Shown piece by piece: positions 11,381-18,700 of a stretch of 64,000 nt of DNA. A program made the translations under genes and the position numbers. The notes beneath the pieces were generated by a model. The model did no database searches and had not been told where the DNA came from. It saw nothing but the letters and a program-made list of their open reading frames with translations. The DNA comes from Pseudacidobacterium ailaaui. Its GTDB lineage: Bacteria > Acidobacteriota > Terriglobia > Terriglobales > Acidobacteriaceae. Each line of letters starts with the position of its first letter. Within the stretch, counting starts at the first letter, position 1. The DNA lies in contig NZ_JIAL01000001.1 in assembly GCF_000688455.1 (NCBI RefSeq), positions 2,201,001-2,265,000 of the forward strand, given 5' to 3'.

Positions 11381-12568
11381 ATGCCAGATGCAAAGACCCG
11401 CAAGCTTCTGCACGCACTCGAACAAAACTGGCAGGCAGAAATTCGTGGTGCCTGCACCTATCGGGCGCTGGCCCAACGTGAAGACGATCCCGTACGGCAA
11501 AAGACCCTGGAACATCTGGCCCAGGCAGAGGAAAAACATGCTGCTCTCTGGGCCAGGCGGATTCAGGATCTGGGTGGGGCGGAGCCCGTGTATCGTGGGA
11601 GCCCGTCTGGAGACGCCGACTCTATCGTCAACCGTCTCGGCGGTGTGGACATGGCCCTTCGGCGCCTGGAAATTGATGAGAGCCGCGACATTGCCCGCTA
11701 CGGTCAGCAGTTAAAAGAACTTGGAGATGGGCCCAGTGTCTCCATCCTTGAGCGTGTGATTGAAGATGAACGCGAACACTACCAGGAATTGAGTACCCTG
11801 ATCCGCAACCGCTATCCCCGGAGTGCCATCCAGACCCCGGATGCAAAAGCTCAACTGGAAGAGCTGCTGGCCAAACGAGGCGGTCAGGGAAGAAAGGCGG
11901 CTGGATGGATAGGAGATGCGATTTACGGCGTAAATGATGGACTTGGCGCGATCTTCGGCATCGTTTCAGGCGTTTCCGGTGCTACGCTCGGCAATAGTCA
12001 TTATGTGCTGTTGGCTGGAATTGCGGGAATGATCGCCAGCGCCCTTTCTATGGGTTCCGGGGCCTATCTGGCAGCCAAGAGCGAAAGAGAGATTTATGAG
12101 GCCGAGGTTGAACGTGAACGCGAAGCCATCCGGATGAATGGGCCCGAGGCCCGCGAGCTGCTTTCGCTCTATTACCAGGTCAAAGGCATTCCGTCAGAGG
12201 ATGCGGACCATATTGTGGAGCACCTTGCCCGGGATGAGGCCCAGTTTCTTCGCGCACTCGCGGCCGAAAGGCTCAATGCAACGGAGGAGGCGCTGCCCCA
12301 ACCCTTCGTCTCAGCCTTTTCAGGGGCTGCTTCGACGGCTGTGGGTGCTTTTATCCCCATCGTCCCCTTTTTCTTTCTTACGGGATATCCCGCCGTCTTC
12401 CTTTCGGCTGCGGTTTCGCTTGCCGCACACTTTGCTGTCGGCGCGGCCAAATCTCTCATCACCGTGCGTTCCTGGTGGAGCAGCGGTCTTGAGATGACCC
12501 TGGTAGGGGCGGTGGAAGGCATTGTGACCTATGTGATTGGCATTGGACTAGGGCACGTTGGTGCATGA
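11381..12568 (+). CDS. Rubrerythrin-VIT1 fusion iron/manganese transporter (MbfA-like)
   Basis: Membrane transporter expected to export iron or manganese and relieve metal or peroxide stress. The 395-residue protein joins an N-terminal rubrerythrin-type ferritin-like domain (residues 8-145) to a VIT1/CCC1 transporter domain (about 165-395). The diiron ligands are all visible: E20, E50-x-x-H53, E100 and E130-x-x-H133. The VIT1 part opens with AIYGVNDGLGAIFGIVSGV, the family's first-helix signature, and shows the usual five helices. The architecture is that of rhizobial MbfA. It stands alone, 98 bases after the previous gene. I see no clear Fur- or DtxR-type box upstream. Confidence 0.9.
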   Translation: MPDAKTRKLLHALEQNWQAEIRGACTYRALAQREDDPVRQKTLEHLAQAEEKHAALWARRIQDLGGAEPVYRGSPSGDADSIVNRLGGVDMALRRLEIDESRDIARYGQQLKELGDGPSVSILERVIEDEREHYQELSTLIRNRYPRSAIQTPDAKAQLEELLAKRGGQGRKAAGWIGDAIYGVNDGLGAIFGIVSGVSGATLGNSHYVLLAGIAGMIASALSMGSGAYLAAKSEREIYEAEVEREREAIRMNGPEARELLSLYYQVKGIPSEDADHIVEHLARDEAQFLRALAAERLNATEEALPQPFVSAFSGAASTAVGAFIPIVPFFFLTGYPAVFLSAAVSLAAHFAVGAAKSLITVRSWWSSGLEMTLVGAVEGIVTYVIGIGLGHVGA

Positions 12569-12603: not shown

Positions 12604-13827
12604 TCATTCTTTGTCTGCTTTTAACCCGAGGGCTTGCAGATATCCAGGATTGAGGTGGCTGTTGGAAAACTGCACCTTTTTCAGCAGATCATCAAAGGCC
12701 TCCTGGGCCTCTTCTACCGAGGGACGTGCAGCAATCCGTTTTTCGGCATTTCCTGTTCCGGCAGGTAGCTTGGCAAATGCGATGATCTCGTCCCAGTGTT
12801 TTGGCCGGTCAAATGTCACAACAGAGGAAGTTGCATCCATCTTTTTATAGGGCCAGAAGCACCAGCCTACGTGATTGGCCTCAAGTGTCTTTACGAATGC
12901 GGCAATCCACTCGTCCTTGTTCTCGCCGGACTCCCCTAACCAGATGGGCACATGGTATTTGTTGCGAAAATCGAGATATTCCTGAATCACGCTTACATCG
13001 GTGGGTGACCAGTATTTATGGAAGGTGTACATGACGTTGGAATCAAAGGGCGGCCCAAAGACTTTAAAGTTTGTGTCCCACTGCGCCCCGCCCAAAATCA
13101 CAACATGGTTTTTGTCCACGGAGCGCACCGCTGCCACGAGTTTTCGATAAACCGGCTCCAGGTCAGGATTGTACTGCTGCAGCCGGGGATAATGCGGGAC
13201 AGGCTCATTCAGGAGATCGTAGCCCAGCACAATCGGCTCGTTCCTGTAGCGGGCGGCAATTCTATGCCAGATGGCGGCCGTATGCTCCTGCGCCTCCTTG
13301 CTGCGGTAAAGCCAGGGGTAACCCCAGCTGTCGTCGATGTTCGACCCTGTTTGTCCGCCTGGCGCGCAATGCAGGTCCAGAATTAGGTAAATGCCGTCCT
13401 TTTTGGCCCAGGCCACAAGGCGATCGAGCAAACGGAAGCCCTCGGCCTGGTCGCTGTCAAAAAACTTCCAGTGCAGCGGGACACGGACAGAATTGAAGCC
13501 GCTCTTTTTGATCAGGTCGATGTCGTTCTGGGTAATGTAGTTTTCGCGCCACTGCTCCCAGAATGCCCTGGCTTTCTCAGGGCCGATCAGCTCATAGCTC
13601 AACTCTTCAATTTCCCGGGGAGACTGCGGCCCTCCGTCGAAGTGGAACATATACCCCTCTGGCTCAAACCAGTTGCCTAAATTGGTCCCCCGCAGCAAGA
13701 GCGGCTTCCCTTGAGCATCCACTAGATCCGGGCCATGGGTGTGGACAAAACCGCGCTGTGCCCAAAGAGGCAGACCGGGGACGGTAAGCAGAGACAAGCA
13801 GAAGAAAGCAGTCTTCAGAAATTTCAT
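12604..13827 (-). CDS. Secreted glycoside hydrolase family 5 (endoglucanase/exo-glucanase type)
   Basis: Hydrolyses beta-linked glucans or mannans outside the cytoplasm. The 408-residue protein begins with a signal peptide (MKFLKTAFFCLSLLTVPGLPLWAQ), which is why the ATG at 13827 is preferred over upstream in-frame codons. GH5 landmarks are RGTNLGNWFEPEGYM, NSVRVPLHWKFF, the acid/base E208 in DLLNEPVPHYP, and the nucleophile E299 in IWLGESGENK. The start resembles fungal-type exo-beta-1,3-glucanases, but exact specificity cannot be read. A palindrome at 13850-13862, almost identical to one before the GH3 gene at 59503, lies just upstream, suggesting common regulation. Confidence 0.9.
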   Translation of the reverse strand: MKFLKTAFFCLSLLTVPGLPLWAQRGFVHTHGPDLVDAQGKPLLLRGTNLGNWFEPEGYMFHFDGGPQSPREIEELSYELIGPEKARAFWEQWRENYITQNDIDLIKKSGFNSVRVPLHWKFFDSDQAEGFRLLDRLVAWAKKDGIYLILDLHCAPGGQTGSNIDDSWGYPWLYRSKEAQEHTAAIWHRIAARYRNEPIVLGYDLLNEPVPHYPRLQQYNPDLEPVYRKLVAAVRSVDKNHVVILGGAQWDTNFKVFGPPFDSNVMYTFHKYWSPTDVSVIQEYLDFRNKYHVPIWLGESGENKDEWIAAFVKTLEANHVGWCFWPYKKMDATSSVVTFDRPKHWDEIIAFAKLPAGTGNAEKRIAARPSVEEAQEAFDDLLKKVQFSNSHLNPGYLQALGLKADKE

Positions 13828-13849
13828 GATGGCGGAAGCATATAGGAAA

Positions 13850-13862
13850 ACAAATCGTTTGT
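13850..13862. promoter_or_regulatory. Candidate operator ACAAA-TCG-TTTGT for the GH5 gene
   Basis: Inverted half-sites ACAAA and TTTGT flank TCG, 23 bases upstream of the GH5 ATG. On the coding strand the site lies just before a TATATG -10-like hexamer. The flanks (AAAAC on one side, GTCTT on the other) also match the palindrome at 59371-59382 before the GH3 gene, with one inserted base in the centre. Confidence 0.5.
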
Positions 13863-13977
13863 CTTGTGACTGAGTCGGGAGACCCTGCCCTCCGTTTGGG
13901 GCCTCTAAGTTTTCCCGTTTTGGTACTAGTTTCCCCAAATGGGTCCTGCGCACCCTCAGAATCCTTCTGCCTTCTTT

Positions 13978-14181: not shown

Positions 14182-14451
14182 GTGAAGTTACGATTCATAG
14201 CGTTCTTTTTTTGTTTCATCGAACTATGTGCTCTTTCCATTGCGCTTGAACAGAAGGCCCATGCATATGTGGATCCGGGTTCTGGCCTGTTGATCTTTCA
14301 GGTAGCGGGCTCTATGTTGACTGGCGCATGTTTCGTGCTTCGAAAGAAGCTGCGCAGCCTTCTCCATTTGGGGCCGTCAATCAAGGACACCGAGCAAAAC
14401 CAGGCTCGGGAAGGTGAGGCACAGGACAGTGGTGCGGACGTTCCCCGCTGA
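14182..14451 (+). CDS. Small YVDPGSG-motif membrane protein
   Basis: Function unknown. The 89-residue product (GTG start) has a hydrophobic N-terminus (residues 4-23) and a motif YVDPGSG at 29-35 followed by a second hydrophobic stretch (36-55) and a charged tail. This motif and size are familiar from small proteins found beside capsule or surface-polysaccharide genes in many phyla, but their role is not established. The next gene starts within its last codons (overlap of 38 bases), so the two are translationally coupled. Confidence 0.75.
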   Translation: MKLRFIAFFFCFIELCALSIALEQKAHAYVDPGSGLLIFQVAGSMLTGACFVLRKKLRSLLHLGPSIKDTEQNQAREGEAQDSGADVPR

Positions 14452-15832
14452 AGGTCAGCAGATTGCTACGTTTCGAGACCCCGCAGGCTCACTACGCATA
14501 GAAAAAGACCGTGTGCTTCGTGTGCTCCACAGTGACTATGCAGATTCTGTTCTTGGGTTTGTCCGCTCTGCCACGGGCGAGGCCTGGGCCGACTCTGGCC
14601 GCTTGGTTCGCACAACAATCTTGCCGGAGACAGAAGCGGATGGTGGGCGGATCGTGGAACATCCGCGCATCTTTTTCCCCTCGTATCCGTGGGAATGGAC
14701 CCCAGGGCAGTGGATTGCTGCTGGCGATCTGACCCTGGACCTTTGCGAAGACCTGCTGGCAAACGGTCTGATTTTGAAAGACGCAACCCCGTTGAATGTC
14801 TTGTTTGATGGCCCTCACCCGGTTTTTGTAGATGTGGCCTCGGTGGAACGCCGCGATCCGGAAAGCCCGGTCTGGATGGCATGGGCACAGTTTGTGCGCA
14901 CATTTCTTCTGCCGCTGGCGGCCTATAAATATCTGGGATGGCCGCTTGCCGCCAGTGTGCAGAAGCGGGATGGATATGAACCGGCGGATTTGTATCCCCA
15001 CCTTTCCTTTTTGCAGCGCTGGTGTACTTCTTTGCGGTCGCTGGTGACGATGCCGCACCTGCTCGAAGCTCGCCAAAGTTCCTCCAGACCTGCTGTATCG
15101 GCACGGAAATGGAAACAATCGCCGGACGTGGCTCTGGCTGTATTGCGCCGGAACCTGCGATTTTTGCGCAGAGCACTGCACTCGCTTTCTCCGGAAAAAT
15201 TTGCATCGCGCTGGAGCACGTATCCGGAAAATGCAGCGCATTACAGCGCAGAAGACCACTCGGCAAAGCAGCGATTTGTGTGCGATGCCCTACTGAAGAC
15301 CTGCCCATCGACTGTACTGGACATTGGAGCCAATACAGGAACATATTCGCGCATTGCAGCCAGCCTGGGGGCGCGCGTCGTGGCGATGGACTCAGACGCC
15401 CAGGCCTGTGAACGGAATTGGCGTGATGCACAGGCGCAAAAGCTCTCTGTCCAGCCATTGGTGGCCGACGTGGCCCGCCCCACACCTGCGGTCGGCTGGC
15501 GTAATGCGGAATCACTTTCGCTTCTGGACCGTGCGCGCGGGCGTTTTGATTGTGTTCTGGTTTTGGGGCTTGTCCATCATCTGCTTCTGGCCGACCAGCT
15601 TCCACTAGGAGAAATCGCGCAGTTGTTGCGGGACGTGACCAAAAAATGGCTGATTGTGGAGTGGGTCCCCTCCGCAGATCCCAAGTTTCAGGAACTGCTT
15701 CGCGGCAGAGACCATCTTTACAATCATCTGAATGAAGAACGATTCCAGGAGGCATTCAGCAGGTTTTTTGCGTTTCCGCTGCGTGAACCGTTGAAGAACG
15801 GCCGGGTCCTCTTTCTCATGGAAGCGCGATAG
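14414..15832 (+). CDS. Class I methyltransferase with kinase-like N-terminal region
   Basis: Probably methylates a surface glycan or its lipid-linked precursor. In the 472-residue protein residues about 300-420 form a Rossmann SAM-binding domain (TVLDIGANTGTYSRIAASLG, then VVAMDSD), related to the NoeA-type large methyltransferases. Residues about 1-150 contain LILKDATPLNVLF and PVFVDVASVE, spaced like the catalytic and metal-binding loops of aminoglycoside-phosphotransferase/kinase folds (D123, N128, D140). The activity of that region is unknown. The GTG start overlaps the YVDPGSG gene; nearby alternative GTG codons exist. The membrane sulfatase-superfamily gene follows after 19 bases. Confidence 0.82.
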   Translation: MRHRTVVRTFPAEGQQIATFRDPAGSLRIEKDRVLRVLHSDYADSVLGFVRSATGEAWADSGRLVRTTILPETEADGGRIVEHPRIFFPSYPWEWTPGQWIAAGDLTLDLCEDLLANGLILKDATPLNVLFDGPHPVFVDVASVERRDPESPVWMAWAQFVRTFLLPLAAYKYLGWPLAASVQKRDGYEPADLYPHLSFLQRWCTSLRSLVTMPHLLEARQSSSRPAVSARKWKQSPDVALAVLRRNLRFLRRALHSLSPEKFASRWSTYPENAAHYSAEDHSAKQRFVCDALLKTCPSTVLDIGANTGTYSRIAASLGARVVAMDSDAQACERNWRDAQAQKLSVQPLVADVARPTPAVGWRNAESLSLLDRARGRFDCVLVLGLVHHLLLADQLPLGEIAQLLRDVTKKWLIVEWVPSADPKFQELLRGRDHLYNHLNEERFQEAFSRFFAFPLREPLKNGRVLFLMEAR

Positions 15833-15851
15833 ACCAAAAACTGAGGATGGA

Positions 15852-17405
15852 ATGAAAGTAAGTTTGTTTTTTGAAAGTGCGGGAGTGGCAATTCTCGCAT
15901 TGTTGCCCTTTTTGTGGGAATTTTTGCTGCCAGACCATTTGGTGATTTATCACAATCTTCAACCGGTCTCTACCATTACTGGTTCCCTTGCCATCATCCT
16001 GCTTCTGGCCATTGTTTTTGCCTTGATTCTTCTGTTCTTTCTTGACCGATTTGATCCTGGGTATAACAGCCTGGGGTGGGCTGCCGTCCTGATATGGGCC
16101 TTTGCCCGGAGCACGGGCAACTTGTTCTTTTTGCTCAGTTATTACGATGTGGAGACCTTTCCCGGAAGGCATGTGAAAACCCTCCTCCAGTACGGAATTG
16201 CGGCTATCGTTCTGTTCCTCTGGTGGCGATTGCGCGGGAAATTCCAAAGCGCGGTCCGGGCCAGCCGGGTCTTATTTTTCTCCATTGGATGCTGCGTTGT
16301 ATGGATGCTTCCTCAGCTGGTCGCCATTACTGTACACTGTGCGGCCCCGGTCCAGTCTTTCTCCCGCCCAAAGCTGAAGGACTCTGTCAACTCTTCATCG
16401 GCCCGAATTGTCTGGGTCCTTTTTGATGAATTGTCGTATGCCCAGGTTTTTGAGCATCCTCAGCCCGGGCTTTCTCTGCCAAATTTCGAGCAATTCAAGA
16501 AAAAAAGCGTCTCTTTTGCCAATGTTCAGCCAGCCGGGTACTTTACCGACATTATTGTCCCCTCGCTTTTTCTGGGGCGGAGATTAGACAAGGTCCGAAG
16601 CTCAATCCAGGGAGACTTGTTCATTTATCCCAGAGAGACGCAAAAGTGGGAGCCTTTTCGTCCGGACGAGACGGTCTTTCATGATGCGCAGCATCTGGGA
16701 TGGAGCACCGGTGTTGCAGGCTGGTATAACCCATATTGCCACATCCTTGCCAGCGTTTTGGATTTCTGCTTCTGGGAATCTATCAATCCGTTCTTTCACG
16801 GAATGTCAGACCGCGCTCCCATGCTGGTGAATGTCCGCGACTTTTTGGTCGAACTCAGCTTCTCCCGAATCAAGGGAAACTCCGCCAGTGTGCATTTTGC
16901 CAGTAACGCACATGCGCAGGAATATGAAAATATTCTCCCTGCCGCCGAGGCCCTGGCCGGCAATGATGCTATTCGATTTGCTTTTATCCACCTTCCCGTG
17001 CCGCATCCTCCGGGAATTTATAACCGGGCCACGCATACCTACAGCGAGCATGGTACGTATCTTGATAATCTTGTCCTGGCAGACCAGACGTTCTGTGCTC
17101 TTTTACAGGCCCTCAAGCACGGCGGCGGCGATTCTCATACCATTTTGATTGTCTCTTCGGACCATTCCTGGCGTGTTGGGATGTGGAAGATGAACAACAC
17201 GACGTGGACGAAGGAGGAAGAGCGGGCCAGCGGCGGAAAGTTTGACCCTCGTCCTGTATTGATGGTGCATTTCCCGGACGAGACCACCGGAGAAACAATT
17301 GCTCAACCGTTTGCAGAAATCAAAACACGGCAACTGATTGATGCCATGTTGCAGGGCCAATTGCATTCACCGCAGGACCTGGACCGCTGGCTTGCCACCA
17401 AATAA
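15852..17405 (+). CDS. Membrane-anchored sulfatase/alkaline-phosphatase superfamily protein
   Basis: Likely transfers or removes a phosphate- or sulfate-linked group on an envelope glycan. The 517-residue protein has four or five membrane helices in residues 1-170, as in phosphoethanolamine- and phosphoglycerol-transferases, and a periplasmic catalytic domain from about 185. Superfamily landmarks are WVLFDELSY (first metal aspartate), GYFTDIIVPSLFLG (probable nucleophile Thr), FIHLPVPHPP and SSDHSWR (second metal site). No Cys-type sulfatase signature CxPxR is present, so phosphotransfer is more likely than sulfatase activity. It is the third gene of the operon starting at 14182, closed by a hairpin. 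Confidence 0.82.
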   Translation: MKVSLFFESAGVAILALLPFLWEFLLPDHLVIYHNLQPVSTITGSLAIILLLAIVFALILLFFLDRFDPGYNSLGWAAVLIWAFARSTGNLFFLLSYYDVETFPGRHVKTLLQYGIAAIVLFLWWRLRGKFQSAVRASRVLFFSIGCCVVWMLPQLVAITVHCAAPVQSFSRPKLKDSVNSSSARIVWVLFDELSYAQVFEHPQPGLSLPNFEQFKKKSVSFANVQPAGYFTDIIVPSLFLGRRLDKVRSSIQGDLFIYPRETQKWEPFRPDETVFHDAQHLGWSTGVAGWYNPYCHILASVLDFCFWESINPFFHGMSDRAPMLVNVRDFLVELSFSRIKGNSASVHFASNAHAQEYENILPAAEALAGNDAIRFAFIHLPVPHPPGIYNRATHTYSEHGTYLDNLVLADQTFCALLQALKHGGGDSHTILIVSSDHSWRVGMWKMNNTTWTKEEERASGGKFDPRPVLMVHFPDETTGETIAQPFAEIKTRQLIDAMLQGQLHSPQDLDRWLATK

Positions 17406-17431
17406 TGCAGGCGCCCCGTGAGGCGCCTGCA
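17406..17431 (+). terminator. Strong hairpin after the envelope operon
   Basis: TGCAGGCGCC and GGCGCCTGCA form a 10-bp perfect stem with a 6-base loop, starting directly after the stop codon. There is no T-run after it, so it may act as an mRNA-stabilising end or a factor-assisted terminator. Confidence 0.6.
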
Positions 17432-17487
17432 TCTTCCAGTCTTGCAGCATCCCTCCCCCCAGTGAAGCTGCATGACTGAAACCTGCT

Positions 17488-18111
17488 TTACATGGGCAAT
17501 CCGTTATATGCATCCACGTAGGGCTTTAACTGGTCGAGCACGACTTCAATGGGTACGGCCTGTCCCTGCTCTACCTTCAGGCGTGGGTCCTCTACGATTG
17601 GCACCAGTACCAGCCTGTCCTCCACACGTCGGCCCACAAAGTACATATTGAAGGCCGGGATGCGAACAACAAACTCATTCTCATTGTGACGGTTGCCTGC
17701 AAGGCGTTTCACAATGTCTGCATTGCCAAAGCTGGAGGGCGTGTAACCGGATTCGTTATGGACAATGGTTACGCCTGTCTTCACCTGACCATCTACCGTA
17801 ACGGGGTACATGGTTTCGGTGCTCTGCGTCAGCAACGTATTCGGGTCCTGGCCGGCCTGATAGCTTTTCAATCTGTCCAGACCAATGTTGTAGACCTGCA
17901 GAGGCGGGGCCAGCTGCGCACGCCGGACCTGGTCCAGTGAGTCAAAGCCCAGGCTTTTGTAGTTTTGTTCGTTGACAAGCTTCTGTAACACGCCGATGGC
18001 GTCCTGTGCTGCCTGCTGCGGCTGCTGCGCCGGAGGCTTAGGCTGACTGGGGTGCTTAGAGCAACCTGCCATGAAAAGAACACCCAGGGCAAAAATTCCC
18101 AGATACCGCAT
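17488..18111 (-). CDS. Lipoprotein partner of the C70 protease
   Basis: Function unknown. The 207-residue product starts MRYLGIFALGVLFMAGCSK, a lipoprotein signal with lipobox MAGC, followed by a Pro/Gln-rich linker (residues 20-35) and a folded domain of about 165 residues. The ATG at 18111 follows GGGAGGG and lies 1 base after the stop codon of the upstream protease gene (TAACATG), so both are made from one message. The pairing suggests a substrate, inhibitor or anchoring partner of the protease. Confidence 0.72.
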   Translation of the reverse strand: MRYLGIFALGVLFMAGCSKHPSQPKPPAQQPQQAAQDAIGVLQKLVNEQNYKSLGFDSLDQVRRAQLAPPLQVYNIGLDRLKSYQAGQDPNTLLTQSTETMYPVTVDGQVKTGVTIVHNESGYTPSSFGNADIVKRLAGNRHNENEFVVRIPAFNMYFVGRRVEDRLVLVPIVEDPRLKVEQGQAVPIEVVLDQLKPYVDAYNGLPM

Positions 18112-18112
18112 G

Positions 18113-18700
18113 TTATTGCCCTCCCGTGTAGGTGATGTTGTAGAAATCGTTCCAGTGGGTGTGGTCCCAGCCCGTGCCACCCACATATTTGTCATAGGTA
18201 TAGACTTCCTGCACGCCACCTGTAGGGGGCCATGGATTGTTCACGCTCACATAATTTGTGCCGTCTATCGTTACATATCCAGTGGCCACCATCATGTGCC
18301 CACCTCCGCCATTCCAGTGCCAGGAGAAGGCAAAGGGCTTCTTGGAGCAATAAATCTGGCTTTGGATCTGCGCCCAGCTCAAGGGTGCATCCGAAGTACT
18401 ATCTGCTTTGAAGCTGTATTTGTCATATTCCGGCCAACCGCCATTGACACAAGCCGAGGGTACAGGAGAATTGCAGCAGTCGCTGCGTCCGAACTCCTTG
18501 TTCGCCTCATCACACTGCTGGATGTTCGAAGCCGGATGAATGTAGTTCATTGTCATTTGTCCGCTCGCCGCCCAGCACCACATATTGGTCTGCTGTCCAT
18601 TGAGCGTCACTGGTACGGAACCAATGTTGCCCGGGTTGCAGCATCCCGCCAAAGAAGCAGACAACGCAAAAATGCACGCCGTCTGCACCGCTTTCCACAT
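18113..18700 (-). CDS. Papain-like cysteine protease lipoprotein (C70/AvrRpt2-like)
   Basis: Envelope-anchored protease. The 195-residue protein has a lipoprotein signal with lipid-accepting Cys20 (SLAGC). The catalytic region resembles the C70 family (AvrRpt2 and bacterial relatives): nucleophile C42 in QTNMWCWAASGQ, His135 in GGGGHMMVATGY and Asn155 or its neighbour in VNNPWPP. Five further cysteines (63, 75, 76, 84 and 118) may form disulfides in the periplasm. It is divergent from the Gcr-family gene at 18835 and coupled to the lipoprotein at 17488-18111. Confidence 0.8.
   Translation of the reverse strand: MWKAVQTACIFALSASLAGCCNPGNIGSVPVTLNGQQTNMWCWAASGQMTMNYIHPASNIQQCDEANKEFGRSDCCNSPVPSACVNGGWPEYDKYSFKADSTSDAPLSWAQIQSQIYCSKKPFAFSWHWNGGGGHMMVATGYVTIDGTNYVSVNNPWPPTGGVQEVYTYDKYVGGTGWDHTHWNDFYNITYTGGQ

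Follow-up and report, generated by a model that had tools for sequence, protein, structure and literature searches.

A putative NoeA/NoeB-type envelope-modification unit with a small YxDPG[ST]G membrane protein as a conserved third component

Three closely spaced genes in the window (the whole 64,000-nucleotide stretch of DNA that was analysed) raise the question of whether a small membrane protein, a methyltransferase-like protein and a membrane enzyme belong together and, if so, what they do. The genes, referred to here as P1, P2 and P3, and a hairpin at their end are arranged as follows.

14182-14451, + strand: P1, 89 aa, with AHA followed by YVDPGSG
14414-15832, + strand: P2, 472 aa, NoeA homologue
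15852-17405, + strand: P3, 517 aa, membrane alkaline-phosphatase (ALP)-superfamily enzyme
17405-17432, + strand: RNA hairpin, 11 bp stem and 6 nt loop (-22.4 kcal/mol, z -4.37)

The tight packing noticed in an earlier sequence-only reading is confirmed by these coordinates, with P1 and P2 overlapping by 38 nt and a gap of 19 nt between P2 and P3. Two inner GTG starts of P2, at 14429 and 14432, are equally possible. The hairpin lies directly at the P3 end, has no T run and is a possible terminator of the operon. The genes on either side (12604-13953 and 17488-18219) are on the opposite strand, and P1, P2 and P3 therefore constitute an isolated three-gene operon. A promoter scan returned nothing over chance level. 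The single 3.69 Mb contig of the host genome contains one copy of each gene. Comparison with the nearest relative (L102) demonstrated purifying selection on all three, with dN/dS of about 0.25/1.29 for P1, 0.16/2.1 for P2 and 0.31/3.3 for P3. The possibility that P1 is a chance open reading frame was ruled out by its conservation, its adjacency to P2 and its dN/dS. Elsewhere in the window, positions 11381-12568 appear by eye to encode a ferritin-like domain fused to a VIT1-type membrane transporter (MbfA-like).

Co-occurrence was evaluated in a class sample of 200 genomes using cut-offs of E < 1e-7 for P1 and E < 1e-80 for close P3, with one genome holding a partial methyltransferase match (G054) left out of the P2 count. 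P2 was present in 43 genomes, P1 in 43 and both in 41 (Fisher p 1e-37, uncorrected for relatedness); close P3 was detected in 30, all 30 of which also contain P1 and P2. In one genome (G060) the trio genes lie at 1.75, 2.15 and 4.13 Mb and all are kept, and scattered yet complete trios occur in several genomes of one genus (G060, G095, G131 and G179). P1-P3 pairs without an adjacent P2 were found (loci L186, L191, L194 and L195; genomes G066 and G197, and two further cases in G080), and genus g20 has P2 lineages with P1 and without a close P3 nearby. A scan of named genomes with P2 as the sole query, plasmid matches included, produced 83 loci distributed over Acidobacteriota, Gemmatimonadota, Verrucomicrobiota, Planctomycetota, Chlamydiota and proteobacteria. 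P1 adjoins P2 at 73 of these loci, an ALP gene at 65 and both at 62; the seven with neither partner comprise five of the Edaphobacter/Granulicella type and two cut contigs. P1-motif ORFs no more than 600 nt upstream of P2 numbered 59 in the 83 loci, against an expectation of 0.18 based on the remaining parts of these loci. Among 299 Pseudomonadota genomes, P2 is present in 7 and P1 in those 7 plus one. A reverse search of the 299 with P1 as the sole query gave 7 new matches, 6 of them adjoined by P2 and 6 by an ALP-superfamily gene, and the gene orders in this phylum include both P1-P2-P3 and P1-P3-P2. Relatives share history and the co-occurrence counts are thus non-independent events, but the changed gene order, the dispersal and the spread over many phyla indicate a functional link between the three proteins. 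The sequence-only reading had named a lack of co-occurrence in other genomes as the result that would speak against it, and the genome searches clearly found the opposite. P1, P2 and P3 are a real, conserved functional trio.

Several individual loci display further arrangements. In one relative (L036:5532-10175) the trio sits between nadD-like and rsfS-like genes; in other members of that genus P2 stands alone beside rsfS, with P1 and P3 elsewhere. In an alphaproteobacterial MAG (L124:4820-5350) an adenylylsulfate kinase-like gene is located just upstream of the trio on the opposite strand. At L194:2128-6675, an O-antigen-ligase-like gene (Wzy_C) and a gene for a flippase-looking multi-helix membrane protein come after a P1-P3 pair without P2, and L195:4842-6806 holds an extra P1-P3 pair without P2.

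P2 displays full-length homology to the annotated Sinorhizobium meliloti NoeA (28.8% identity over 95%, E 4e-29). It is composed of a kinase-like N-terminal domain (about residues 18-260) and a class I SAM methyltransferase domain (about 262-472). Pfam matches are solely to methyltransferases and are confined to residues 285-406 (Methyltransf_25, 2.7e-7), in agreement with the initial description of a methyltransferase with an extra N-terminal region. In the AlphaFold2 model (pLDDT 92), residues 263-472 match methyltransferases with Z 16-18; methyltransferases fill the structure-match list of this whole-chain model. A PDB sequence search with the single P2 protein gave no match. Across 65 P2 homologues the invariant residues are R36, K122, D123, N128 and D140 in the kinase-like part and D303, G305, N307, G309, H388, H389 and R464, motif I included, in the methyltransferase part. 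A 2022 survey described the NoeA/Lani_1194 family as predicted kinase-methyltransferases with conserved neighbours, in which Arg replaces the Lys72 of PKA, the equivalents of D166, N171 and D184 are conserved and the ion-pair Glu was not found (PMC9758233). R36, D123, N128 and D140 of P2 match these published catalytic positions. The kinase-like character suggested earlier is consequently supported as a prediction by the homology to this family and by these four invariant residues. P2 has the full-length similarity, the kinase catalytic positions and the C-terminal methyltransferase expected of a NoeA, with a predicted kinase activity.

The methyltransferase domain provides a second point of comparison. 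WbdD, from E. coli O9a, adds a phosphate to the terminal mannose of the O-antigen and subsequently methylates that phosphate, and its H132-H133 pair is essential for phosphate methylation (PMC3482155). WbdD is the best PDB match of the P2 methyltransferase profile (E 6e-8, with the next at 1.8e-5), and the invariant H388-H389 of P2 align with H132-H133. NodS and RebM have a pair of His or of Tyr residues at the same position and lack Arg203 (PMC3482155); the His-His pair is therefore not diagnostic of phosphate methylation. In structure fit to the P2 methyltransferase domain, ChlM and NodS are equal to or better than WbdD. The invariant R464 and Y270 of P2 are candidate equivalents of Arg203 and Tyr16, provided that no gaps occur at the ends of the structural alignment, and the methyltransferase-only profile alignment to WbdD stops short of Arg203. 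The kinase segments of P2 (K-D-A-T-P-L-N) and WbdD (H-D-D-V-R-P-W-N) align at catalytic positions, without reaching significance. These data also bear on an alternative that we consider improbable, namely that the kinase-like domain is a pseudokinase or scaffold and that P2 acts as a sugar or glycolipid O-methyltransferase. The replacement of Lys72 by Arg and the missing ion-pair Glu (PMC9758233) would fit such a role, as would the lack of a Pfam kinase match in any of the 65 family members. However, the invariance of R36, D123, N128 and D140 would be unusual for a dead kinase, and among PDB entries the methyltransferase domain best matches by profile a phosphate methyltransferase that is itself fused to a kinase.

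In P3, membrane helices at the N-terminus precede a catalytic domain that starts near residue 181. It matches PF00884 (Sulfatase) with a Pfam E value of 1.1e-5, and its AlphaFold2 model (pLDDT 91.6) matches sulfatases with Z 24 over residues 181-517; the five helices with which the model begins probably span the membrane. A PDB sequence search with the single P3 protein returned sulfatases at E 0.28-0.37 only. D192, T232, H385, Y403, D437 and H438 are invariant in 54 P3 homologues, and the fold match together with the invariant nucleophile and metal ligands assigns P3 to the ALP superfamily. Where sulfatases carry C/S-x-P-x-R, P3 has Thr232-D-I-I-V-P237, which led us to reject a formylglycine sulfatase and upholds the original view of a membrane sulfatase/phosphatase-superfamily enzyme without the sulfatase signature. 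A tblastn search of P3 against plasmids gave no match, and its likeness to NoeB therefore required profile comparison. Alignment of the two with hhalign gave a probability of 98.9% (E 2.4e-17) over the catalytic domain only, at 11% identity, and the identity over this domain was 11-13% across the comparisons. The two proteins share the ALP-superfamily catalytic domain with an aligned Thr and metal-ligand pattern, but with an alignment restricted to this domain and of low identity, strict orthology between P3 and NoeB may not hold. At one locus (L063:4593-7811) P2 is directly followed by two tandem membrane proteins, the first of which aligns with NoeB-like ALP proteins and has no Pfam match; this arrangement may suggest a P3 duplication.

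P1 is built from a predicted signal peptide ending in AHA, the YVDPGSG motif, one hydrophobic helix and a basic tail. In 123 distinct homologues collected by profile search, Y29 is conserved in 123, D31 in 121, P32 in 123, G33 in 116 and Q40, which lies inside the hydrophobic helix, in 122. The signal-peptide-like start of the homologues mostly ends in A-x-A or A-x-G, and some relatives have no leader and start with M-YTDPGSG. Literature searches for the YxDPG[ST]G motif in several spellings, covering 5.39 million papers, found none on these proteins; the 12 papers with a DPGSG or DPGTG string seemed unrelated, as judged by title. It is highly unlikely, in our view, that P1 is a substrate or covalent carrier modified by P2 or P3 instead of a subunit of P3. 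In favour of such a role, the mature protein begins with a motif that hardly varies, with Ser or Thr at the hydroxyl position in 112 of the 123, and P1 is found in nearly all P2 genomes, unlinked cases included. Yet the other 11 have Ala, Asn, Met, Ile or Leu at this position, while the Asp, Pro, Tyr and Gln show almost no variation, which disfavours a Ser/Thr carrier, and the outer face of the membrane would be hard to reach for a cytoplasmic P2. Variant small proteins with AYIDPNMGG and AYIDPNAGS (L200:1558-3941 and L224:5753-8022) adjoin longer ALP proteins with a strong PF00884 match, perhaps a second type of P1-P3 pairing, and a Wzz-like gene is present upstream of the variant pair at L200.

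We favour, at a probability of roughly 0.5 for the full mechanism, the interpretation that the three gene products make up a NoeA/NoeB-type unit that modifies the cell envelope. For P2 we infer enzymatic activity of both domains, a glycan substrate and a methyl-phosphate product: in the cytoplasm, the kinase-like domain would phosphorylate a saccharide, probably lipid-linked, and the methyltransferase domain would then methylate that phosphate in the manner of WbdD. P3 would be polytopic with a periplasmic catalytic domain, which may use Thr232 and bound metal to act on this glycan at phosphate or phosphodiester groups; a transferase activity is more likely here than that of a plain phosphatase. 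The order of these steps is part of the proposal, as are the P1 topology and the P1-P3 contact. P1 would be a one-helix membrane subunit; once its signal peptide is cleaved, the mature N-terminus (Y-x-D-P-G-S/T-G) would lie on the outer side of the membrane beside P3, with the Gln of the P1 helix packed against P3. Polysaccharide genes located beside related trios or P1-P3 pairs encode a flippase, a pyruvyl transferase, a heptosyltransferase, a GDP-mannose dehydratase, a UDP-sugar dehydrogenase, WecG and an O-antigen ligase, which supports a glycan substrate; within the window, no glycan genes adjoin the trio. Taken with the WbdD profile match and the aligned His pair, these neighbours favour phosphorylation of an envelope saccharide and methylation of the phosphate by P2. 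The surface-glycan modification module proposed in the sequence-only reading fits the polysaccharide clusters around related trios and pairs, with glycan modification itself still putative. A broader and more doubtful proposal, against which we would set the odds, is that P1, NoeA and NoeB form a general bacterial machine that decorates envelope glycans with methyl-phosphate or a related phosphodiester, P1 being an obligatory subunit of the periplasmic enzyme that was overlooked in nodL-noeA-noeB.

The S. meliloti operon is listed as nodL, noeA and noeB and associated with host-specific nodulation by Ardourel 1995, as cited in PMC9758233 and PMC4053727. In the annotated pSymA record of S. meliloti ml66, a gene for a hypothetical protein of 71 aa accompanies nodL, noeA and noeB. 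The 71-aa ORF between nodL and noeA (L072:4799-5014), annotated as hypothetical only, contains AYLDPGTGS and corresponds to P1; the protein reads MPIIMSVVGFLILSIVPAHAYLDPGTGSMLVQGLIG... and the end of the ORF overlaps noeA. The same ORF is present in S. meliloti strain 1021 and Rhizobium T1470. Among the papers on the nodL-noeA-noeB operon, none was found that names the small gene. This setting invites another explanation, that the target of the unit is a secreted signal or a small glycolipid and not a surface polysaccharide, with NoeA decorating a lipo-oligosaccharide in the cytoplasm and NoeB trimming or modifying it outside. NoeA and NoeB have been hypothesised to modify Nod factor (PMC9048898, PMC9758233), and the S. 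meliloti trio resides within this very operon. We nevertheless regard the explanation as unlikely, given how widely the trio occurs in Acidobacteriota, Chlamydiota, Verrucomicrobiota and other groups without known Nod-factor symbiosis. In UniProt, NoeA and NoeB are described as apparently having no part in Nod factor synthesis, which counts against it as well. The earlier statement that no function is described for the trio is thus correct only in part, for the noeAB module, although biochemically uncharacterised, is known from genetics as host-range nodulation genes (PMC9758233).

With NoeA and NoeB placed beside a third small protein in a unit present across many phyla, the question of what they do, posed since 1995, shifts from symbiosis to general envelope chemistry. 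The conserved unit makes this chemistry testable through the 71-aa S. meliloti gene, through D123, H388, H389 and R464 of P2 and through T232 of P3, with a phosphorus NMR signature as the readout for methyl-phosphate. If true, this would be the first role for YxDPG[ST]G proteins.

Comparison with known systems places the unit more precisely. Like P3, the LtaS, PbgA and EptA-type enzymes have membrane helices at the N-terminus and, after these, an ALP domain with a Thr nucleophile, and LtaS and PbgA are among the Foldseek matches of P3; the top Z-scores of P3, however, go to soluble sulfatases. To our knowledge, a P1 partner and a link to P2 are not features of these enzymes. WbdD, like P2, combines a kinase and a methyltransferase in one chain, but in the order methyltransferase, kinase and coiled coil, whereas the methyltransferase of P2 is C-terminal; WbdD also has no P1 or P3 partner and works with an ABC-transporter O-antigen pathway. 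On domain order P2 falls outside the WbdD type, and by analogy it probably works like WbdD. Lani_1194 of Legionella shares the kinase-methyltransferase build and the catalytic positions and likewise adjoins an ALP-fold protein, Lani_1195 (PMC9758233). Of 816 neighbourhoods, 65% include Lani_1193 (PMC9758233), and the 71-aa P1-type ORF may belong to its family. Lani_1194 and its neighbours were read as possible effectors (PMC9758233); the distribution and membrane anatomy of the trio fit an envelope unit better. The closest likeness is to the noeAB module, in which a small YxDPG[ST]G ORF overlapping noeA, then noeA, then noeB reproduce the arrangement of P1-P2-P3. The present operon differs in lacking nodL and a nod operon context, in probably having no part in symbiosis and in a P3 that is only remotely similar to NoeB. 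Taken as a whole, P1-P2-P3 is a member of the NoeAB-type module, and what is new is the third component and the breadth of distribution, not a new category.
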